A DNA stretch of 27,011 nt. It comes from a virus. Below the pieces are notes generated by a model. The model ran no database searches and had not been told where the DNA came from. It worked only from the letters and a program-made list of their open reading frames with translations. Positions 5,060 through 17,537 of this stretch are shown one piece after another; position 1 is the first letter of the stretch, and every line of letters starts with the position of its first letter. A program made the position numbers and the translations under genes. Location: IMG/VR virus record IMGVR_UViG_3300020204_000303, positions 1 through 27,011 of that record; one strand, given 5' to 3'.

Positions 5060-5329
5060 TCAGGACTTCTTAGTGGAAGACTTCTCTACTGGAAGATTGG
5101 AAACAAAAGTATTGAGTGTTTGCGCTTTGGCAATAATCTCTTGTTCTGATGGGAAAGATGGGTAACCTGGATGTTTCGGTGGTTCCTCACCTCTTTGTTT
5201 CGCAGCGTCACATTCAGCTGCATATTGATTTGCTATAATTTCTCTTTTACCAAAATGGTCAGATTCCAACATACCCTGAGCCATTTTCAGTAATTCGAGC
5301 CTTATTTCAAAGGGTGACATATTTGTCAT
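5060..5329 (-). CDS. Conserved small phage protein, unknown function
   Basis: An 89-residue soluble protein, helical N-terminus (PFEIRLELLKMAQGMLE), then a Pro-rich stretch (PPKHPGYPSFPSEQE) and a second helix ending in a Lys-rich tail. I recall short proteins starting with SPFEIR and a helix in T4-like marine phages, with no known function. The ATG has AAGGAG 7 bases upstream, so expression is probably high. It ends 8 bases before a terminator hairpin. Confidence 0.75.
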   Translation of the reverse strand: MTNMSPFEIRLELLKMAQGMLESDHFGKREIIANQYAAECDAAKQRGEEPPKHPGYPSFPSEQEIIAKAQTLNTFVSNLPVEKSSTKKS

Positions 5330-5360
5330 AGTAATTCTCCTTGTGTGTTTTGTGTGTGTA

Positions 5361-5381
5361 CCAGTCGAAAATTACGACTGG
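5361..5381. other. Intergenic hairpin
   Basis: CCAGTCG (5361-5367) and CGACTGG (5375-5381) form a 7-bp stem. In the plus direction it is followed by a T-rich stretch, in the minus direction by a CA-repeat, so its role as terminator for minus-strand genes is doubtful. It lies alone between two small genes. Confidence 0.35.
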
Positions 5382-5396
5382 TTTATTATTTAGTAA

Positions 5397-5594
5397 TTAC
5401 CAATGTCTCACAACATTAGCAATAATGAAAAAACAGGTAATCACATGAATTGCAATCCAAAAAGTTTTAAGAAACAACGCAATTCTTGCTTCTTTAACTG
5501 TGAGAATTGGAACATCTGGTCGGTCATCATCGGTGCGACCCATCAAATGACCGGTAGCACGGGCCCAAATTTTTTCAACAGTATTCAATCCCAA
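5397..5594 (-). CDS. Small membrane protein, TTG start
   Basis: The 65-residue protein has an amphipathic N-terminus (NTVEKIWARATGHLMGR), a short polar link with DDDRPDVPILT, and a C-terminal membrane segment (about residues 38-62). The frame begins with TTG at 5594, preceded by AGGA at a suitable distance; a second TTG overlaps the upstream stop. The upstream gene ends within it (overlap of 10 bases), typical of genuine phage coupling. The type is familiar from T4-like cyanophages; function is unknown. Confidence 0.65.
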   Translation of the reverse strand: MGLNTVEKIWARATGHLMGRTDDDRPDVPILTVKEARIALFLKTFWIAIHVITCFFIIANVVRHW

Positions 5595-6289
5595 AGATTC
5601 CTGTAATATTTACCAAACAATCTTGTGCCGTTGTTGATTCGGTTGTGGTGTTTTTCAAAGGCATCCGAATCAAACTTAGCTGTATGATTGGGACCTTTTT
5701 CAAAAGTAAACATTGTTGGTTTGCCATTTTCATCCCATGCACACGCAACAGACTTCATATCATGTTCACCAGAATGAAATTGTTTGTCGTTATCCTCATC
5801 ACAGAGTTGTTCAAAGGCCCAAATCATTTCATCGAGCACCCAATCCCAACGAGCATGAATGTCACGGTCACCTTCTTCGACTTCATGCTCATGGTAGAAT
5901 TCAAAACACTTTTGGTCTTCCCATTGTTCGGTCGTATTGTATCTTAGATGCTCTGGTACATCTTCACAATCAACAACACCAGAACCGTGTTTATCTTTCT
6001 TTAATTGTTTGAGCATTGGCAGAATAATTGGAGACAATATTGAGTCCATGTTCCAAGTATCATATTTGTCAATCTTAATGTATTCAATTCGTGGATGAAG
6101 AAAATCGAGGAACTTCTGAATCGCAATTGAAATTGGTTCTAAACGATTCACCCATTTCTCATACTTGTGATTTGGATGGTCTTCTAGATTGTAGAACGCA
6201 TCTTTGTCTTTCTCCCAAAAACAAACCTTCTCAAGTATTGTGTATGGAGATAGCCAATGACTACGGTATTTGGAAATGTAAATTTTCAT
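5585..6289 (-). CDS. Conserved T4-like phage protein, unknown function
   Basis: A 234-residue soluble protein rich in Trp, His and acidic residues. Notable parts are KIDKYDTWNMDSILSPIILP, then EDVPEHLR, then RWDWVLDEMIWAFEQL. This DTW-MD-LS-IILPML and WDWVLDEMIWAFE layout recurs in T4-like phages of marine bacteria as I remember them, without a known role. No clear Shine-Dalgarno precedes the ATG, and the gene begins just 14 bases after the tmRNA coding piece, so it may be translated inefficiently or from a transcript starting at the tmRNA promoter. Confidence 0.75.
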   Translation of the reverse strand: MKIYISKYRSHWLSPYTILEKVCFWEKDKDAFYNLEDHPNHKYEKWVNRLEPISIAIQKFLDFLHPRIEYIKIDKYDTWNMDSILSPIILPMLKQLKKDKHGSGVVDCEDVPEHLRYNTTEQWEDQKCFEFYHEHEVEEGDRDIHARWDWVLDEMIWAFEQLCDEDNDKQFHSGEHDMKSVACAWDENGKPTMFTFEKGPNHTAKFDSDAFEKHHNRINNGTRLFGKYYRNLWD

Positions 6290-6303
6290 AATATATTAAA
6301 TTG

Positions 6304-6619
6304 TTGGTGCAGAGTGATTGGGTAATAAGGACACTCTGCGAAACCTCAGATGGCTTAAGCCGCCATCAAAAAGCGCTCATCATTGGCGTTTATCGTTTTG
6401 TCTCTATTACGGCTTAGACTTTACCGATTCTCCAGTTCTCTACTCATCTGCCCTGTCGAAACCATGGCTGGCCCATTAGGAAGCATATTAGAATTCACTC
6501 TATCTGAGGGCGAGTATTTAACGGGTAGCCCCCAGCCTGTGCCCGAACTAATATGCTTTCTGGTGGACCAGAGGGGAATCGAACCCCTGTCCAGAACACT
6601 TTTCTGTCACCTTCAACGA
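6304..6619 (-). ncRNA. ssrA: Two-piece (circularly permuted) tmRNA gene
   Basis: On the minus strand the 3' (acceptor) piece comes first: a T arm AGGGG-TTCGATT-CCCCT, the 3' acceptor strand CTGGTCC, A, and an encoded CCA ending at 6561. After an 86-base spacer (6560-6475) comes the 5' end of the coding piece at 6474, GGGCCAG, which pairs with CTGGTCC in all seven positions including G3-U70, the alanine identity pair. The conserved tmRNA 5' motif GGTTTCGAC follows. The tag frame (6387-6355) reads ANDERFLMAA then TAA. A hairpin GCAGAGTG/CACTCTGC (6339-6332, 6316-6309) closes the coding piece. tmRNA with SmpB rescues stalled ribosomes and tags the peptide for proteolysis. The exact 5' end of the acceptor piece and 3' end of the coding piece are estimates. 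Confidence 0.92.
6475..6560 (-). other. Intervening segment of the permuted tmRNA precursor
   Basis: The 86 bases between the mature 3' CCA and mature 5' G are flanked by an 11-bp perfect inverted repeat (6481-6491 and 6548-6558), so the spacer folds into a long hairpin that brings the two acceptor strands together. In known permuted tmRNAs this piece is removed by nucleases, leaving two RNA chains; RNase P would cut at 6474/6475. Confidence 0.8.
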
Positions 6620-6625
6620 ATTCTA

Positions 6626-6633
6626 TATTTATA
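6626..6633 (-). promoter_or_regulatory. T4-type late promoter box (TATAAATA) before the tmRNA
   Basis: Read on the minus strand the bases are TATAAATA, identical to the T4 late promoter -10 box, about 6-8 bases ahead of the estimated 5' end of the tmRNA acceptor piece and just after the upstream gene's stop at 6639. I found no other exact copy in an intergenic position of this window. The phage encodes gp33 and DsbA, consistent with T4-like late transcription. AT-richness makes chance a real alternative. Confidence 0.5.
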
Positions 6634-6638
6634 TTGTA

Positions 6639-7307
6639 TCAGGTATTGTGATAATTGTCAATGTATTTTTGCAAGTTTGTCAAATAATTTTCTTTAGTCT
6701 CAACAAACAATTGGGTACCTTCATTCTCTACCGCAATGGCAATTACAATTTGATTGATTGGTTTGCCTGTTCGTTCTTCAAACATTTCTGCATATGCCGA
6801 AGCCTGCATAAAGTAATTTTCTATATACGACTTATCTTTGGACTTACTTGCAGTCTTCCAGTCAACAATTGATAATTCACCAGACCATTCTGCGATACAA
6901 TCACAACGACCTGCAAGTTTCAATTTATCTGAATATAGCGGTGTTTCAATGCCGTAGATATCACCAATGTTTGCATCAATAACTTTGCGAACATCAAAAA
7001 ACATTTCCTTAATGTCTGGCATCATTGTTTTGAATTTCATGTCAGTCATCTCATTAAGGAGATATTTTTCTACTGTATTGTGTAACTTGGTGCCACGACC
7101 AGAAGCCTTGGCAGAGATTTTGTTGGCAACTTCTTCACCAACTCTTTGACGCCATTCGTAGATGGCCTTTTTGTTGTATGCTGAAAGAACCGTAGTAATT
7201 GAAGGGTAGAGGTTGCCTCCTGGAGTTTTGTATACTCTACCCTTCTCCGTGGTTTCAGATTCTAGGTCATAATTTAATTCACTTAGTTTTACATGACGAA
7301 AATTCAT
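6639..7307 (-). CDS. PD-(D/E)XK nuclease, RecB/Cas4-like exonuclease family
   Basis: The 222-residue protein shows the core of RecB-type nucleases: GTKLH (H76), YGIETPLY (E121), GRCDCIAEW (D136), IVDWKT with D149 and K151, and a downstream Gln in FMQASAYA (Q168). These are the metal-binding and catalytic positions of the PD-(D/E)XK fold, including the QxxxY motif. It likely degrades or processes DNA ends in host DNA breakdown or recombination; T4-like marine phages often carry such an exonuclease. It begins 3 bases after the next upstream gene ends, and its stop lies directly ahead of the tmRNA promoter box. Confidence 0.85.
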   Translation of the reverse strand: MNFRHVKLSELNYDLESETTEKGRVYKTPGGNLYPSITTVLSAYNKKAIYEWRQRVGEEVANKISAKASGRGTKLHNTVEKYLLNEMTDMKFKTMMPDIKEMFFDVRKVIDANIGDIYGIETPLYSDKLKLAGRCDCIAEWSGELSIVDWKTASKSKDKSYIENYFMQASAYAEMFEERTGKPINQIVIAIAVENEGTQLFVETKENYLTNLQKYIDNYHNT

Positions 7308-8804: not shown

Positions 8805-9098
8805 TCAGTTAATAACTTCAGGTTCATTATTAAAAATACTCGACCACTTCTTCAACTTATTTCGTTTTCTAACATTGGCATTCAAAACATTTATTGAATT
8901 AACAATACCATGTTCTTGCATCAATTCAAGCATACACATTAGGTCACCAACTTCTTCTTCTAACGAATCTTTGTTAGATTTATTTGTGGTTGGGTGAACA
9001 TCATCCATACCAAATCGAAACACTTTGCTGATTGCCTGAATCACTTCAGCACATTCTTCTTGTGCAATCAACATTACTTCTTTTTGTTTATCATTCAT
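8805..9098 (-). CDS. MazG-like nucleotide pyrophosphohydrolase
   Basis: The 97-residue protein has the MazG-fold metal motif: EECAEV (E15-xx-E18) and LEEEVGDLMCMLE (E49-xx-D52) in two helices separated by a loop with GMDDVHP. MazG enzymes hydrolyse (d)NTPs or ppGpp-like nucleotides to monophosphate and PPi; phage versions may alter the host nucleotide or alarmone pool. No strong ribosome binding site precedes the ATG. Immediately upstream is the GC-rich structured region, so this gene's leader is the end of that RNA. Confidence 0.8.
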   Translation of the reverse strand: MNDKQKEVMLIAQEECAEVIQAISKVFRFGMDDVHPTTNKSNKDSLEEEVGDLMCMLELMQEHGIVNSINVLNANVRKRNKLKKWSSIFNNEPEVIN

Positions 9099-9109
9099 AT
9101 CATTTTCAC

Positions 9110-9357
9110 AGTAATGGGTGCTTCCTCTCTGCGGTGGTACCTATAGTGTCTCCGGCTCTCGATTGCCTTCACAGACACCTTCCATCCACTTCACGACCAG
9201 AGAGGATTGTCGCATTGCCAGCGCCGGTTCGGTTTGACCGGAACCACCCATGAGTGACGAACTCATTTCTCCTTCCTGCGGGTCACAGTAGCCAGGCGTT
9301 ACCCCGGCGGGTTTGGGTGAGGACTTACGGCACGCTTCACAGAGTTCCTGCCTCAAA
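9110..9357 (-). ncRNA. GC-rich structured noncoding RNA candidate (possibly HEARO/omega-RNA-like)
   Basis: The 240 bases 9121-9360 are 57% GC in a genome section otherwise about 30-40%. On either strand it folds into many helices. Stems (plus coordinates): 9124-9131 with 9198-9205 (8 bp); inside it 9134-9137 with 9186-9189 and 9146-9151 with 9173-9178; 9226-9233 with 9237-9245 (8 bp, one bulge); 9250-9255 with 9261-9266; 9291-9296 with 9303-9308; 9329-9332 with 9349-9352; long-range 9114-9120 with 9245-9251 (7 bp). Gene orientation suggests minus-strand transcription, from the promoter at 9830-9858 through the preceding gene. Length, helices and recollected motifs such as GTAACGCCTGGCTAC suggest the HEARO class (RNA of IsrB/IscB systems), but no IsrB/IscB gene is adjacent and the family name is a guess. 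Confidence 0.6.
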
Positions 9358-9359
9358 AC

Positions 9360-9794
9360 TTAGACCGTCTCTTTTACTTCGGTAACTTCGGTAATCTGCA
9401 TTTCTTCAACAGTCACTTTTTCAACGACTGGATCAGCCTGCAGGTCTTTCAACTTTTTAACTTTGGGCGCCTTAGCAACTTTAGGTGCCTTGGCAGTCTT
9501 CGCAACTTTCTTAGACGAAGCGGCAGCAATGTCTTTGTCACGCTTGTCAATGTATTTTTGCATCTCGGCAGCATTCGTCAGAACATAGCCGCCGACTTTG
9601 CGACCATTTTTCACAACTTTCACAACACCGCCAATCACTTTGATACGCCACACAAAAGTGGACAGACGATACAAAGGAACGCCTTTCATCTCAGGCATTG
9701 CTTCTAGTGATTCTTTGGTGACAGGTTCACCGTTCAACATCACCTTCAACACTTTTTCCCATTGCAAAGTCTTTGCTTGTTTAGCGAAACGCAT
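9360..9794 (-). CDS. Putative DNA-binding protein with histone H1-like tail
   Basis: The first about 80 residues of this 144-residue protein look like a winged-helix unit: helices with QWEKVLKVMLNGEPVTKESLEAMP and LYRLSTFVWRIKV, then beta strands GGVVKVVKNGRKVGGYVL. The second half is Lys/Ala/Pro-rich (KKVAKTAKAPKVAKAPKVK, about 94-113), like histone H1 tails, followed by an acidic-Val/Thr end. I infer binding to DNA, possibly to compact or regulate; no family name. It has its own strong promoter upstream and AAGGAG before the ATG, and it is followed at 2 bases by the structured RNA. Confidence 0.65.
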   Translation of the reverse strand: MRFAKQAKTLQWEKVLKVMLNGEPVTKESLEAMPEMKGVPLYRLSTFVWRIKVIGGVVKVVKNGRKVGGYVLTNAAEMQKYIDKRDKDIAAASSKKVAKTAKAPKVAKAPKVKKLKDLQADPVVEKVTVEEMQITEVTEVKETV

Positions 9795-9829: not shown

Positions 9830-9858
9830 ATCATAACACAAAAAGGCACGACTGTCAA
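9830..9858 (-). promoter_or_regulatory. Sigma70-like early promoter P1
   Basis: Minus strand: TTGACA (9858-9853), 17-base spacer, TATGAT (9835-9830). The -35 is preceded by TAGTGC, shared with three other promoters of this window. It drives the H1-tailed protein gene and probably the structured RNA beyond it. The leader carries a good AAGGAG site. Confidence 0.85.
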
Positions 9859-14371: not shown

Positions 14372-14935
14372 TTAGAAGATATGGTCCGCTACGCCTAATT
14401 CAATCAATTCTTCTGCCGAAAAGTAGGCGTCACTTGGCGGCAAAAGTTTTTTCTTAATTGTTGTGGTGTTTAGTTCGGTACACTCTTTCAACAAATTGAC
14501 CATTCGATTGTTAATGAGTTCATGTTCTTTGGCAGTGGCCTTAATGTCATGGTACTTGCCTGTTGAGCTATCTGTATACTGGTGACACATAATAGATGCA
14601 GTTGGACTAATATATCGTTGTCCTTTTTCTCCTGCAGCAAAGATTAAAAATGCAGATGAACATACGGATCCAAGACCAATCGTATGCACAGGTTTATTTG
14701 ACTTACGCATTACATCAATCAACGCAAAGGCATCTTGTAGAGAGCCGCCATTTGAATTGATATAGAGAGTGAGTGGATAATCACCAGATTGTAAATTTTC
14801 ATAGGTGATCCAAAACATCGCATCCATTGTGTTCGATTCTTCAATATCACCATAGAGAAAATGTATGTGATTCTCCAATAGACCAGAATTGATTCGATCC
14901 TCTGCGGGTATAAAATCCATATCCTTCTTATTCAT
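14372..14935 (-). CDS. ClpP-like serine protease (S14)
   Basis: The 187-residue protein matches the Clp protease fold: YINSNGGSLQDAFALIDVM, GLGSVCSSAFLIFAAG with the nucleophile Ser93 (or 94), ASIMCHQ with His118, and SDAYFSAEELIELGVADHI with Asp169, completing the Ser-His-Asp triad. Length fits ClpP. Phage ClpP-like proteins may work with host ClpX/ClpA or act alone on phage proteins; which applies is unknown. Its ATG overlaps the GalE-like gene's stop. Its presence with a phage tmRNA is notable because tmRNA-tagged proteins are ClpXP substrates. Confidence 0.85.
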   Translation of the reverse strand: MNKKDMDFIPAEDRINSGLLENHIHFLYGDIEESNTMDAMFWITYENLQSGDYPLTLYINSNGGSLQDAFALIDVMRKSNKPVHTIGLGSVCSSAFLIFAAGEKGQRYISPTASIMCHQYTDSSTGKYHDIKATAKEHELINNRMVNLLKECTELNTTTIKKKLLPPSDAYFSAEELIELGVADHIF

Positions 14936-15876
14936 TTTTTAATTTGCCATTTATGAGCTGTTTCGATAATAGACATTATATCATGTCTGGGACGATAATT
15001 CAATAGTTTTTCGGCATATGTAATGTCGGCAACTAACTTTGATGGGTCTCCAGGTCTTCTTTCGGCATAATTGTATCCTACTGGCAACTTTGCTACTTTG
15101 CCAATCATGTCAATAATTTCTTTTACCGAATATCCTTTACCTGTTCCTAAATTGATAATCTCACTACCGTAATGTCTTTCTAACAAATTAGCAGCAAGAA
15201 TGTGTGCATCGGCAACATCCGAAACATGAACATAGTCACGAATACAGGTGCCGTCTGGAGTGTCGTAGTTATCTCCATAAATTTCAAACTTCTGAAAATT
15301 ATTTAGATTTTGCAGAATTCGAGGAATAAGGTGCGTTTCAGGATTGTGGTCTTCGCCAAACTCACCATCAGGATCTGCACCTGCAAGATTGAAATAACGA
15401 AAAATTATATGATTCAATCCAGAGTGCCGTATCGCAAGTTCGGCTGAATACTTGCTCGAGGCGTATGGATTGTTCATTGGTTTCACTTCATCAGATTCTT
15501 TGATTGGTTCTTCTTTTGCCCTATAAACTCCTGCGGTAGATGAGTAGATGATTTTTTTGACACCATGAATTTTCATAGCATTCAAAAGATTGATTGTGCC
15601 GATTACATTGTTACGATAAAATTCAATTGGATTTTTATTTGATTCGCATACTTCGATTCTGCCGGCAAGATGAAACACCATATCAATAGAAACTTTATGA
15701 AATAAATTATTGAGTGTTTCAGAATCTACGATATCACAGAAATAAAACAAATCAACATATTTACTTTTTGGATATCGTTTGTCAACACCAACAACTTTCC
15801 ATCCTTCTCTTTTGAGAGTTTTAGAAAGATGCGAACCAAGATAACCAGAGACACCAGTAACGAGTGCGGTTTTCAT
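14932..15876 (-). CDS. galE: UDP-glucose 4-epimerase-like NAD-dependent epimerase (GalE family)
   Basis: The 314-residue protein is an extended short-chain dehydrogenase: Rossmann motif TGVSGYLG (7-14), SST at 112-114, and the catalytic Y138-xxx-K142 in NPYASSKYSAE, followed by YFNLAGADPDGEFGE and HLIPRIL typical of UDP-hexose 4-epimerases, and a GTGKGYSVKE stretch. It should interconvert UDP-glucose and UDP-galactose (or the N-acetyl forms). The start is ATG 15876 with AGGA just upstream; the frame runs 38 codons further but into the RmlC gene. It is the last sugar gene of a four-gene cassette. Confidence 0.88.
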   Translation of the reverse strand: MKTALVTGVSGYLGSHLSKTLKREGWKVVGVDKRYPKSKYVDLFYFCDIVDSETLNNLFHKVSIDMVFHLAGRIEVCESNKNPIEFYRNNVIGTINLLNAMKIHGVKKIIYSSTAGVYRAKEEPIKESDEVKPMNNPYASSKYSAELAIRHSGLNHIIFRYFNLAGADPDGEFGEDHNPETHLIPRILQNLNNFQKFEIYGDNYDTPDGTCIRDYVHVSDVADAHILAANLLERHYGSEIINLGTGKGYSVKEIIDMIGKVAKLPVGYNYAERRPGDPSKLVADITYAEKLLNYRPRHDIMSIIETAHKWQIKK

Positions 15877-15877
15877 T

Positions 15878-16384
15878 CTATCCTGCGCTGTCTCTTTCCG
15901 ATAGAATTGGTCTTCGAATCGGCCACCAAATATTAAACTCTGGATCGTTCCACTTAATTGTAAATTGACTAGCTCTGTCATAATATGCATTTAACTTATA
16001 ACTAAACACCACACTTTCAGACATTACAAGGTGTCCATTGCCAAACTTTGGTGGCACAAGAACCTGTAATCGATTTTTGTCTGAAAGTGTGAAAGATTCC
16101 CATTGACGATACTGCGGATGTGTTGGGTCATTGTTTACCACAACAAAGTAAAAACTTCCGTGCAGGCAAGTAATCAGTTTTGTTGTGTGTGAATCACCAT
16201 GCAATCCACGAAGCACATGCCGTCTGGATGTGCTGATAGAATCTAGTACCCAATTGTAATCGATACCATTTTGGCGATAGATTGCATCATTGTAAACTTC
16301 GGTATTTGTGCCACGAAAGTCTTCATGCATTACAGGTGGCGTAATGAGTAGAACGCCATCTAATTCTGTAGTCTGTATTTTCAT
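15878..16384 (-). CDS. dTDP-4-dehydrorhamnose 3,5-epimerase-like (RmlC family)
   Basis: The 168-residue cupin has the RmlC hallmarks: RGLH (59-62) with the catalytic His, KLITCLHGSFYFVVVN, then VPPKFGNGHLV, VFSYKLNAYYD with Tyr near 129, and WNDPEFNIWWP with Asp147. It should epimerise a dTDP-4-keto-hexose, but without rmlA, B and D here it may use a host-made sugar nucleotide or be a 3-epimerase or isomerase relative. The ATG overlaps the glycosyltransferase stop (ATGA) and the gene ends 1 base before galE. Confidence 0.82.
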   Translation of the reverse strand: MKIQTTELDGVLLITPPVMHEDFRGTNTEVYNDAIYRQNGIDYNWVLDSISTSRRHVLRGLHGDSHTTKLITCLHGSFYFVVVNNDPTHPQYRQWESFTLSDKNRLQVLVPPKFGNGHLVMSESVVFSYKLNAYYDRASQFTIKWNDPEFNIWWPIRRPILSERDSAG

Positions 16385-17130
16385 GCTATGATTGATACTC
16401 CAGGTGCGATTTGTGCCAACTTCTTTTGATTCCAAGGAAAATTTTCACCATACTTGTTTTTCATATGATTATTTCCCTCAATAAAAAATTGTTCGGTGAC
16501 CGAATTTGGATTGCCGTCTAAACGATAGCAAAGCGTATGTGCATTCGTGCAATCAAATTTAGGAAAGTGTTTCGATAGATTCGAAAAGAATTGTCTATCG
16601 GCACCCCATTGACCGTACCATGCATGACCAATTTGAACGGCAACATCTCTCTTTACTGCAAACGAGGATGTGTCAATGTGATGAACGGTGTGATTGAAAT
16701 AAACTGGCCATTTACCGAGTGATTCACAATTGTCATTACAAAGATAATTGCTTTGTTTATCGTAAATTTTGCGGAGTGAATATGCCCAATCATGCCCTTG
16801 TTTAATTACATTGACAAGTTTTTCGACATGGCATGATTCATACCAATTGTCCTCATCTAGGTAACAAATGATATCGGCATTAACAAGAAAAGAACATGCG
16901 GCATAAACACGATGACCATACCAACCTTTACCAACATTGTCTTCTAGTATGACAAACTTCGCTTTCGAATAACCTTCGGTGCAATTAAATACGGTACTTC
17001 GATGGTCGTATCCATCAATAAAAATGTAATGTGAAAGATTCTTGTAGGTTTGTTTGTCTATCGATTTAATGCATTCGGTTAGATGATAACTACCAATTGT
17101 TGGTGTTACAACTGCGACTTTCATTTCCAT
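16381..17130 (-). CDS. Family 2-type glycosyltransferase
   Basis: The 249-residue protein starts with VAVVTPTIGSYHLTECIKS, the usual beta-alpha opening of GT-A glycosyltransferases, and has YLDEDNWYE (D92-E93-D94) at the metal-binding DxD position. WGADRQFF and the later acidic residues fit the acceptor side. It should transfer a sugar from a nucleotide donor, perhaps to host LPS, a phage structure or DNA. Start at 17130 or at the second ATG, 17124, which overlaps the upstream stop. It lies between the cytidylyltransferase and RmlC genes. Confidence 0.82.
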   Translation of the reverse strand: MEMKVAVVTPTIGSYHLTECIKSIDKQTYKNLSHYIFIDGYDHRSTVFNCTEGYSKAKFVILEDNVGKGWYGHRVYAACSFLVNADIICYLDEDNWYESCHVEKLVNVIKQGHDWAYSLRKIYDKQSNYLCNDNCESLGKWPVYFNHTVHHIDTSSFAVKRDVAVQIGHAWYGQWGADRQFFSNLSKHFPKFDCTNAHTLCYRLDGNPNSVTEQFFIEGNNHMKNKYGENFPWNQKKLAQIAPGVSIIA

Positions 17131-17537
17131 GATTTCAAAATCTCAGAAGAAGAATTCATTTTATGCGAACCGCCAACACCATAGGCAAACGAAACGCCAG
17201 TAACATCTGCCTCTCGATTGTTTGTTTCGTTGCGGTCACCACCATTTGCAAAAATAATTTCATCATTCGGCCACATCAACTTAACATTTTTAATTAAGTG
17301 TCTTGCCGAATCATCATCATCAATAAATTTCATTGTGTAGTCAACATACTTAATTGATTGAATAATCTCTAGGCGTTCTTGTAGAGGCATAAATGGTTTG
17401 CCTTTTTTTCTTGTCAGCCACTCATCAGAGTTTACACCAACAACAAGTTTATCGCCCATTCGTTTTGCAGCACGAAAGTAAGCGATGTGACCAGAGTGAA
17501 TAGGATCAAATCCACCAGAACAAACAACAATCTTCAT
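17121..17537 (-). CDS. Cytidylyltransferase-like nucleotidyltransferase (TagD/RfaE-II type)
   Basis: The 138-residue protein has the class motifs: CSGGFDPIHSGHIAYF with the HxGH signature (H14, H17), VVGVNSDEWL (34-41), a basic KKGKPFMPLQERL, and the late SSSEIL replacing the ISSTxI motif. Such enzymes join CTP or ATP to a phosphorylated polyol or sugar phosphate, for example glycerol-3-phosphate or heptose-1-phosphate. Substrate cannot be told from sequence. It is the first gene of the sugar cassette and ends inside the glycosyltransferase start. Confidence 0.82.
   Translation of the reverse strand: MKIVVCSGGFDPIHSGHIAYFRAAKRMGDKLVVGVNSDEWLTRKKGKPFMPLQERLEIIQSIKYVDYTMKFIDDDDSARHLIKNVKLMWPNDEIIFANGGDRNETNNREADVTGVSFAYGVGGSHKMNSSSEILKSWK

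Follow-up and report, generated by a model that had tools for sequence, protein, structure and literature searches.

The gap between a 144-aa gene and a MazG-like gene in a linear 27-kb virus record (IMG/VR record IMGVR_UViG_3300020204_000303, positions 1 to 27,011; hereafter the window) raises the question of what it encodes. The GC content is 56.5% over positions 9110–9357, compared with 37.9% for the whole window. The gap is the window's GC peak, and only 0.12% of 199-nt stretches are at least as GC-rich as positions 9116–9314. An earlier note on this DNA had described a GC-rich island between a DNA-binding-protein gene and MazG, and the composition and the MazG-like neighbor agree with that description. 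The note had further proposed a highly structured RNA, possibly a guide. The window also carries T4-type genes for a single-strand DNA binding protein, a helicase loader, and a late-transcription regulator. The genes surrounding the gap lie on the minus strand, the same strand as the RNA, and a candidate promoter-like site is placed upstream of both the 144-aa gene and the RNA (Table 1).

Covariation and fold of the RNA

Folding energy does not distinguish the gap from shuffled sequence. Compared with dinucleotide shuffles, the plus strand has a z-score of -0.73 (43 of 200 shuffles fold equally well) and the minus strand a z-score of -0.53 (56 of 200). Because neither strand outperforms its shuffles, the presence of many helices is by itself no proof of structure.

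Comparison among relatives, in contrast, does reveal structure. A tblastn search using a 71-aa frame from the gap as the query identified 15 viral loci, and in their DNA, insertions and deletions preserve the helices and break the reading frames. A DNA pattern built on the core detected 36 stretches. Twenty-nine distinct sequences were aligned and used to build a covariance model, R1. In this first alignment, 96.3% of cells are paired, and two-sided changes occur at 26 of 46 pairs, which is reached by none of 500 shuffles. An alignment of 79 sequences (A4), which was fitted to R1 so that its nested helices are biased towards that model, yields a 50-pair structure with 96.8% of cells paired, although relatedness among family members means that such paired-cell counts are non-independent events. 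Two-sided changes in A4 are found at 41 of 50 pairs (reached by 0 of 500 shuffles), with a covariation score of 0.568 compared with 0.201 for shuffles. Sliding the A4 partners by 1–3 columns drops pairing to 34–52%. As judged from covariation between aligned sequences, positions 9116–9314 of the window encode a structured RNA on the minus strand. The highly structured RNA of the earlier note is thus borne out by covariation on this strand, not by folding energy, and other phage copies found by homology do show compensatory changes. The window member aligns to the full length of R1 (positions 1–205), and its boundaries were refined to those listed in Table 1.

Table 1. Window coordinates of the RNA, its predicted structural elements, and neighboring features
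Feature	Position	Strand	Evidence or remarks
Structured ncRNA, 199 nt	9116..9314	-	R1 192.9 bits; covariation
P1, 5'-terminal hairpin	9291..9308	-	two-sided changes at 5/5 pairs; 97.7% paired
P2 hairpin	9276..9288	-	99.7% paired
PK1 pseudoknot, P2 loop ACCC with GGGU	9280-9283 with 9246-9249	-	79/79 sequences paired
P3 hairpin	9250..9266	-	4/4 pairs with two-sided changes
P4 hairpin	9224..9241	-	4/4 pairs covary; 92.4% paired
PK2, probable pseudoknot, P4 loop AACC with GGUU	GGUU at 9242-9245	-	89% paired; two-sided changes present
P5 hairpin CGC-UGGCAAU-GCG	9211..9223	-	most conserved core; heptaloop UGGCNAY
P6 5' strand	9197..9205	-	pairs with 9124-9132; closing long-range helix
P7 and P6 3' strands	9124..9137	-	P7 partner is GUGG 9186-9189
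P8, k-turn-like arm	9146..9178	-	3-nt bulge and tandem GA; C-helix 4/4 pairs covary
144-aa gene	9360-9794	-	flanks the RNA gap
MazG-like gene	8805-9098	-	flanks the RNA gap on the other side
Promoter-like site TTGACA-17-TATGAT	9830-9858	-	11/12 consensus matches; TG before -10

The loop of P1 has a U-turn-like sequence, UAA in the window member and UNR in most members. Between the P2 loop and the stretch after P3, pairing is 100% across the 79 sequences and occurs in six combinations (ACCC:GGGT, ATCC:GGAT, GTCC:GGAC, ACAC:GTGT, GCCC:GGGT, and ACGC:GCGT). This pairing is free of the bias towards R1 because a covariance model cannot contain pseudoknots, and we regard PK1 as certain from these comparisons. 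A second pseudoknot, PK2, probably forms between the P4 loop and its partner stretch. The P5 hairpin (CGN-UGGCNAY-NCG) is nearly invariant, and its third pair alternates among C-G, U-A, and A-U while remaining 100% paired over 79 sequences. The pattern scans were keyed on conserved stretches of the RNA, so the apparent conservation of such stretches is partly a search artefact.

Two-sided changes are present at all eight pairs of P6 (99.5% paired). P7 alternates among members as GUGG:CCAC, GCGG:CCGC, and GCUG:CAGC. Of the 66 members possessing the arm, 50 show tandem GA:GA following a bulge of 3 nt, a combination that is the sequence signature of a k-turn. P8 is missing or replaced in some members and is therefore peripheral. 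The long-range helix and three-deep nesting that had been noticed in the gap are present as P6-P7-P8.

Family membership and comparison with known phage RNAs

R1 detects members absent from its training set at 105–212 bits, and two further pattern scans combined with R1 produced 69 convincing matches at 70–217 bits. The bit scores are unaffected by the shortened calibration of R1, which makes its E-values rough. In total, we examined 86 distinct elements of 158–295 nt from IMG/VR phage contigs, and about a hundred phage sequences carry the family; more divergent members may exist, as the pattern scans used conserved stretches of the RNA itself. A 17-bit match (L170) and a second match at L253 were dismissed as chance.

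When the window sequence, together with seven further members, was compared by blastn with the isolated phages in INPHARED, nothing homologous was found. A scan of 84,980 species genomes for cellular copies, using a core pattern that represents only part of the family, detected only two coding stretches, which we took to be chance. No description of the family was found in the literature within reach of our search, which did not extend to subscription papers or unpublished collections. We therefore restrict the claim of novelty to Rfam 15 and the searched literature, relative to which the family is previously uncatalogued. Kinship with HEARO, GOLLD, ROOL, or omega RNAs, raised for checking in the earlier note, received no support from the Rfam covariance search, in which no family matched.

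Two known RNAs share the habitat of the present family. GOLLD is a structured ncRNA of phages and prophages with unknown function, often located near tRNA islands, and ROOL is phage-encoded, also often near tRNA islands, with several pseudoknots and no known protein partner (PMC12286853). However, GOLLD exceeds 800 nt in many members, and ROOL is about 659 nt and forms nanocages; neither produced a covariance-model match to the present, much shorter family. The manA RNA motif, a structured RNA with a possible pseudoknot, is found in T4-like cyanophages (PMC2864571). It is likewise phage-carried, but it lies in the 5' UTRs of metabolic genes and also gave no model match.

The T4 tRNA cluster contains two small stable RNAs, RNA D (species 2; 119 nt) and RNA C (species 1; 139 nt). 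RNA D begins 2 nt after the tRNA-Arg gene and has a 5-bp/7-nt hairpin close to its 5' end; many members of the present family likewise lie straight behind a tRNA with a hairpin near the 5' end. Homology to RNA D, which appeared possible by eye, failed the model test. The conserved core is absent, and R1, run with filters off on T4 and six relatives, scored at best 5.3 bits, over a 24-nt stretch of RNA D. As a separate observation, homologues of T4 rnaD (phage T4 70908–71171) occur in 704 phage records, where a "hypothetical protein" annotation often overlaps them.

Placement beside tRNA genes

The 5' end of the RNA lies no more than 2 nt from the CCA end of a tRNA in 48 of the 86 elements, with 13 different tRNAs in the upstream position, and a tRNA follows within 15 nt of the 3' end in 47, often at 0–13 nt. 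By one or the other of these measures, 61 of 86 elements directly flank a tRNA, a count that is low rather than high because a tRNA-Sec-like sequence immediately before the element at L157 was missed by ARAGORN and shown by cmscan. All but one of 1,486 nearby tRNA genes are on the same strand as the RNA, although overlap among loci makes these counts non-independent. The description "phage tRNA-cluster ncRNAs" thus fits the family, whose members lie within or beside tRNA arrays on the same strand.

Parsimony on a quick tree of these elements requires at least 17 changes in the identity of the upstream tRNA, which indicates that the register is kept despite a changing neighbor. Position within the array varies from near the first tRNA to the last (24 tRNAs before the element and 3 after it at L260; 19 before and none after at L233), and the downstream genes vary. 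This free positioning and the variety of downstream genes argue against a leader or riboswitch. Exactly one copy was found in each of 16 carrier records, the window included. The carrier contigs are up to 355 kb in length, and 13 of the 16 contain 6–31 tRNAs.

Not every member is positioned in this way. The window, L107, L119, L121, L134, and others hold the RNA away from tRNAs, and 38 of 86 elements, the window among them, lack a detected tRNA abutting their 5' end. tRNA processing therefore cannot be the sole route to the 5' end.

Several tRNA-associated sequences were noted at individual loci. In four (L103, L104, L113, and L135), a conserved element of about 75 nt closed by GCTGGATG...CATCCAGC lies between the RNA and tRNA-Gln; it may be a further uncatalogued RNA or else a tRNA that has diverged strongly. 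In L102 and L109, no tRNA was called directly before the element; the position is occupied by an unusual sequence whose CUCUUAA loop resembles a Lys-CUU anticodon, perhaps a degenerate tRNA. An Rfam search of L109 positions 540–700 returned nothing significant. In two jumbo-phage contigs (L157 and L175), the gene after the RNA begins MARITSEKAV, a start that on visual inspection recalls the omega subunit of RNA polymerase.

Possible roles of the RNA

On balance, and with modest confidence, we favor a phage ncRNA that shares a transcript with tRNAs, is freed by tRNA processing, and acts in trans. An RNA of about 160–300 nt, comprising hairpins P1–P5, the certain pseudoknot PK1, the probable pseudoknot PK2, and the long P6-P7-P8 arm, would normally be made within a tRNA transcript, with the CCA end of the upstream tRNA as its 5' neighbor. 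The enzymes that mature the neighboring tRNAs would cut it out as a stable RNA, and some component of the host would be its target in trans. The likeliest targets, which are guesses from context, would be the translation or tRNA machinery or a host defence that targets RNA. In the phage of the window, the RNA would have left the tRNA cluster and now sit in a protein operon. Such an RNA would be analogous to GOLLD, ROOL, and T4 RNAs C and D, to which it has no similarity. A broader proposal, which we advance only tentatively, is that the family represents a new viral RNA class, widespread among the T4-like and jumbo phages of environmental metagenomes. Such an RNA would use tRNA maturation to be set free, its 5' end being produced where the CCA of a tRNA ends, and would then either target host translation or tRNA-targeting antiviral defence or itself join in tRNA 3'-end processing.

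The complex conserved phage RNAs, including GOLLD, ROOL, and T4 RNAs C and D, have no established function. The present family is smaller and more tractable, at about 200 nt with one copy per carrier contig and a well-determined fold, and its exact tRNA-linked position hints at how the RNA is made and where its target may be. Its consistent retention in phage genomes, including those of 300-kb phages, suggests that the RNA should matter to infection. R1 also allows annotated phage genomes to be rescanned.

The main rival, which we consider rather unlikely, is a role in cis within the long untranslated tRNA transcript. Here the RNA would stay in the primary transcript and act in antitermination, in protection from Rho or nucleases, or in tRNA 3' maturation. 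The put RNA of phage HK022 promotes such read-through. Strict strand agreement with the tRNAs, exact abutment on the CCA end, and the single copy per record all favor a cis-acting element. However, the RNA is not at the array start in loci such as L260 and L233, and some carriers, the window included, hold it away from tRNAs altogether.

Another candidate, which we consider improbable, is a selfish RNA element (ribozyme or intron-like) with tRNA 3' ends as its insertion sites, of which the RNA would be a relic or a small version. Its occurrence behind 13 tRNA types, with repeated changes of neighbor, is what such an element could produce, but the single copy in each of the 16 records tested argues against it. 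In addition, no nuclease or recombinase gene is associated with the RNA in the window gap, no group I or II intron model in Rfam matches, and conservation is strong rather than decaying.

We give very little credence to the guide RNA of the earlier note, which was to be of the HEARO/omegaRNA type and to work in trans with a host IscB, IsrB, or TnpB. The size and structural complexity of the RNA are similar to those of HEARO and omegaRNAs, and omegaRNAs can also contain pseudoknots. However, the window member matched nothing in Rfam 15 at E ≤ 10, including HEARO and the families linked to IscB and TnpB, and the other members examined had no Rfam match at their coordinates. Weak matches to the snoRNAs sR18 and sX4 were dismissed as chance or as overlap with tRNAs. 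None of the 16 carrier records contains the TnpB/Cas12f-type domain PF07282, in a search whose control worked; the IscB RRXRR domain PF14239 gave no match in the carriers, but its positive control was equally silent. In many members the RNA is bounded by tRNA genes on either side, leaving no variable guide segment evident. The exact placement after tRNA 3' ends and the single copy in each contig point to an association with tRNA operons and not with transposons. Of the standalone guide-like RNA that had been proposed, the first part stands, as the RNA has no adjacent protein partner, and the second does not.

Other protein-linked roles were considered. No conserved protein partner was noticed beside the RNA in an unsystematic survey of neighborhoods, and PADLOC returned no defence-model match among six neighboring window proteins. 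Regarding a ToxI-like type III antitoxin, there is no tandem repeat within the element, and the same six neighbors had no PADLOC match. A search of the carriers for T4-type RNA ligase (PF09511) gave no signal, and its control was also silent. A MazG-related function was rejected: MazG relatives elsewhere are mostly without the RNA, and the genes downstream of the RNA vary.

A small protein gene, either the 71-aa frame at 9141–9356 or its 41-aa part with a Shine-Dalgarno-like AGGAG upstream, is excluded for practical purposes despite the open frame and its 15 tblastn loci: those loci are RNA homologues, the homologous frame contains at least one stop inside the element in all 83 members where it could be located, in 83 of 86 members no frame stays open across the whole element, and the frame has no Pfam or PHROG match. 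The RNA is thus non-coding. At L100, L119, L121, L122, and L134, an upstream frame enters the RNA and reaches a UAA stop in the P1 loop (CUAAUCA or UUAAUCA); the C-termini of frames stopping there include GRSA, ERSV, KRSA, and GRGA, among others.

Two further features of the window were noted. A permuted tmRNA at 6264–6653 on the minus strand matches tmRNA_permuted and beta_tmRNA and has the tag ANDERFLMAA; a second carrier, L122, also has a permuted tmRNA (5093–5467, minus strand), with the tag ANDDVYAMAA. At 14932–17537 on the minus strand is a cluster that, judged by eye from the translations, resembles a sugar-modification cassette, with genes that look like those for a nucleotide-sugar epimerase, a dTDP-sugar epimerase-like protein, a glycosyltransferase, and a cytidylyltransferase.
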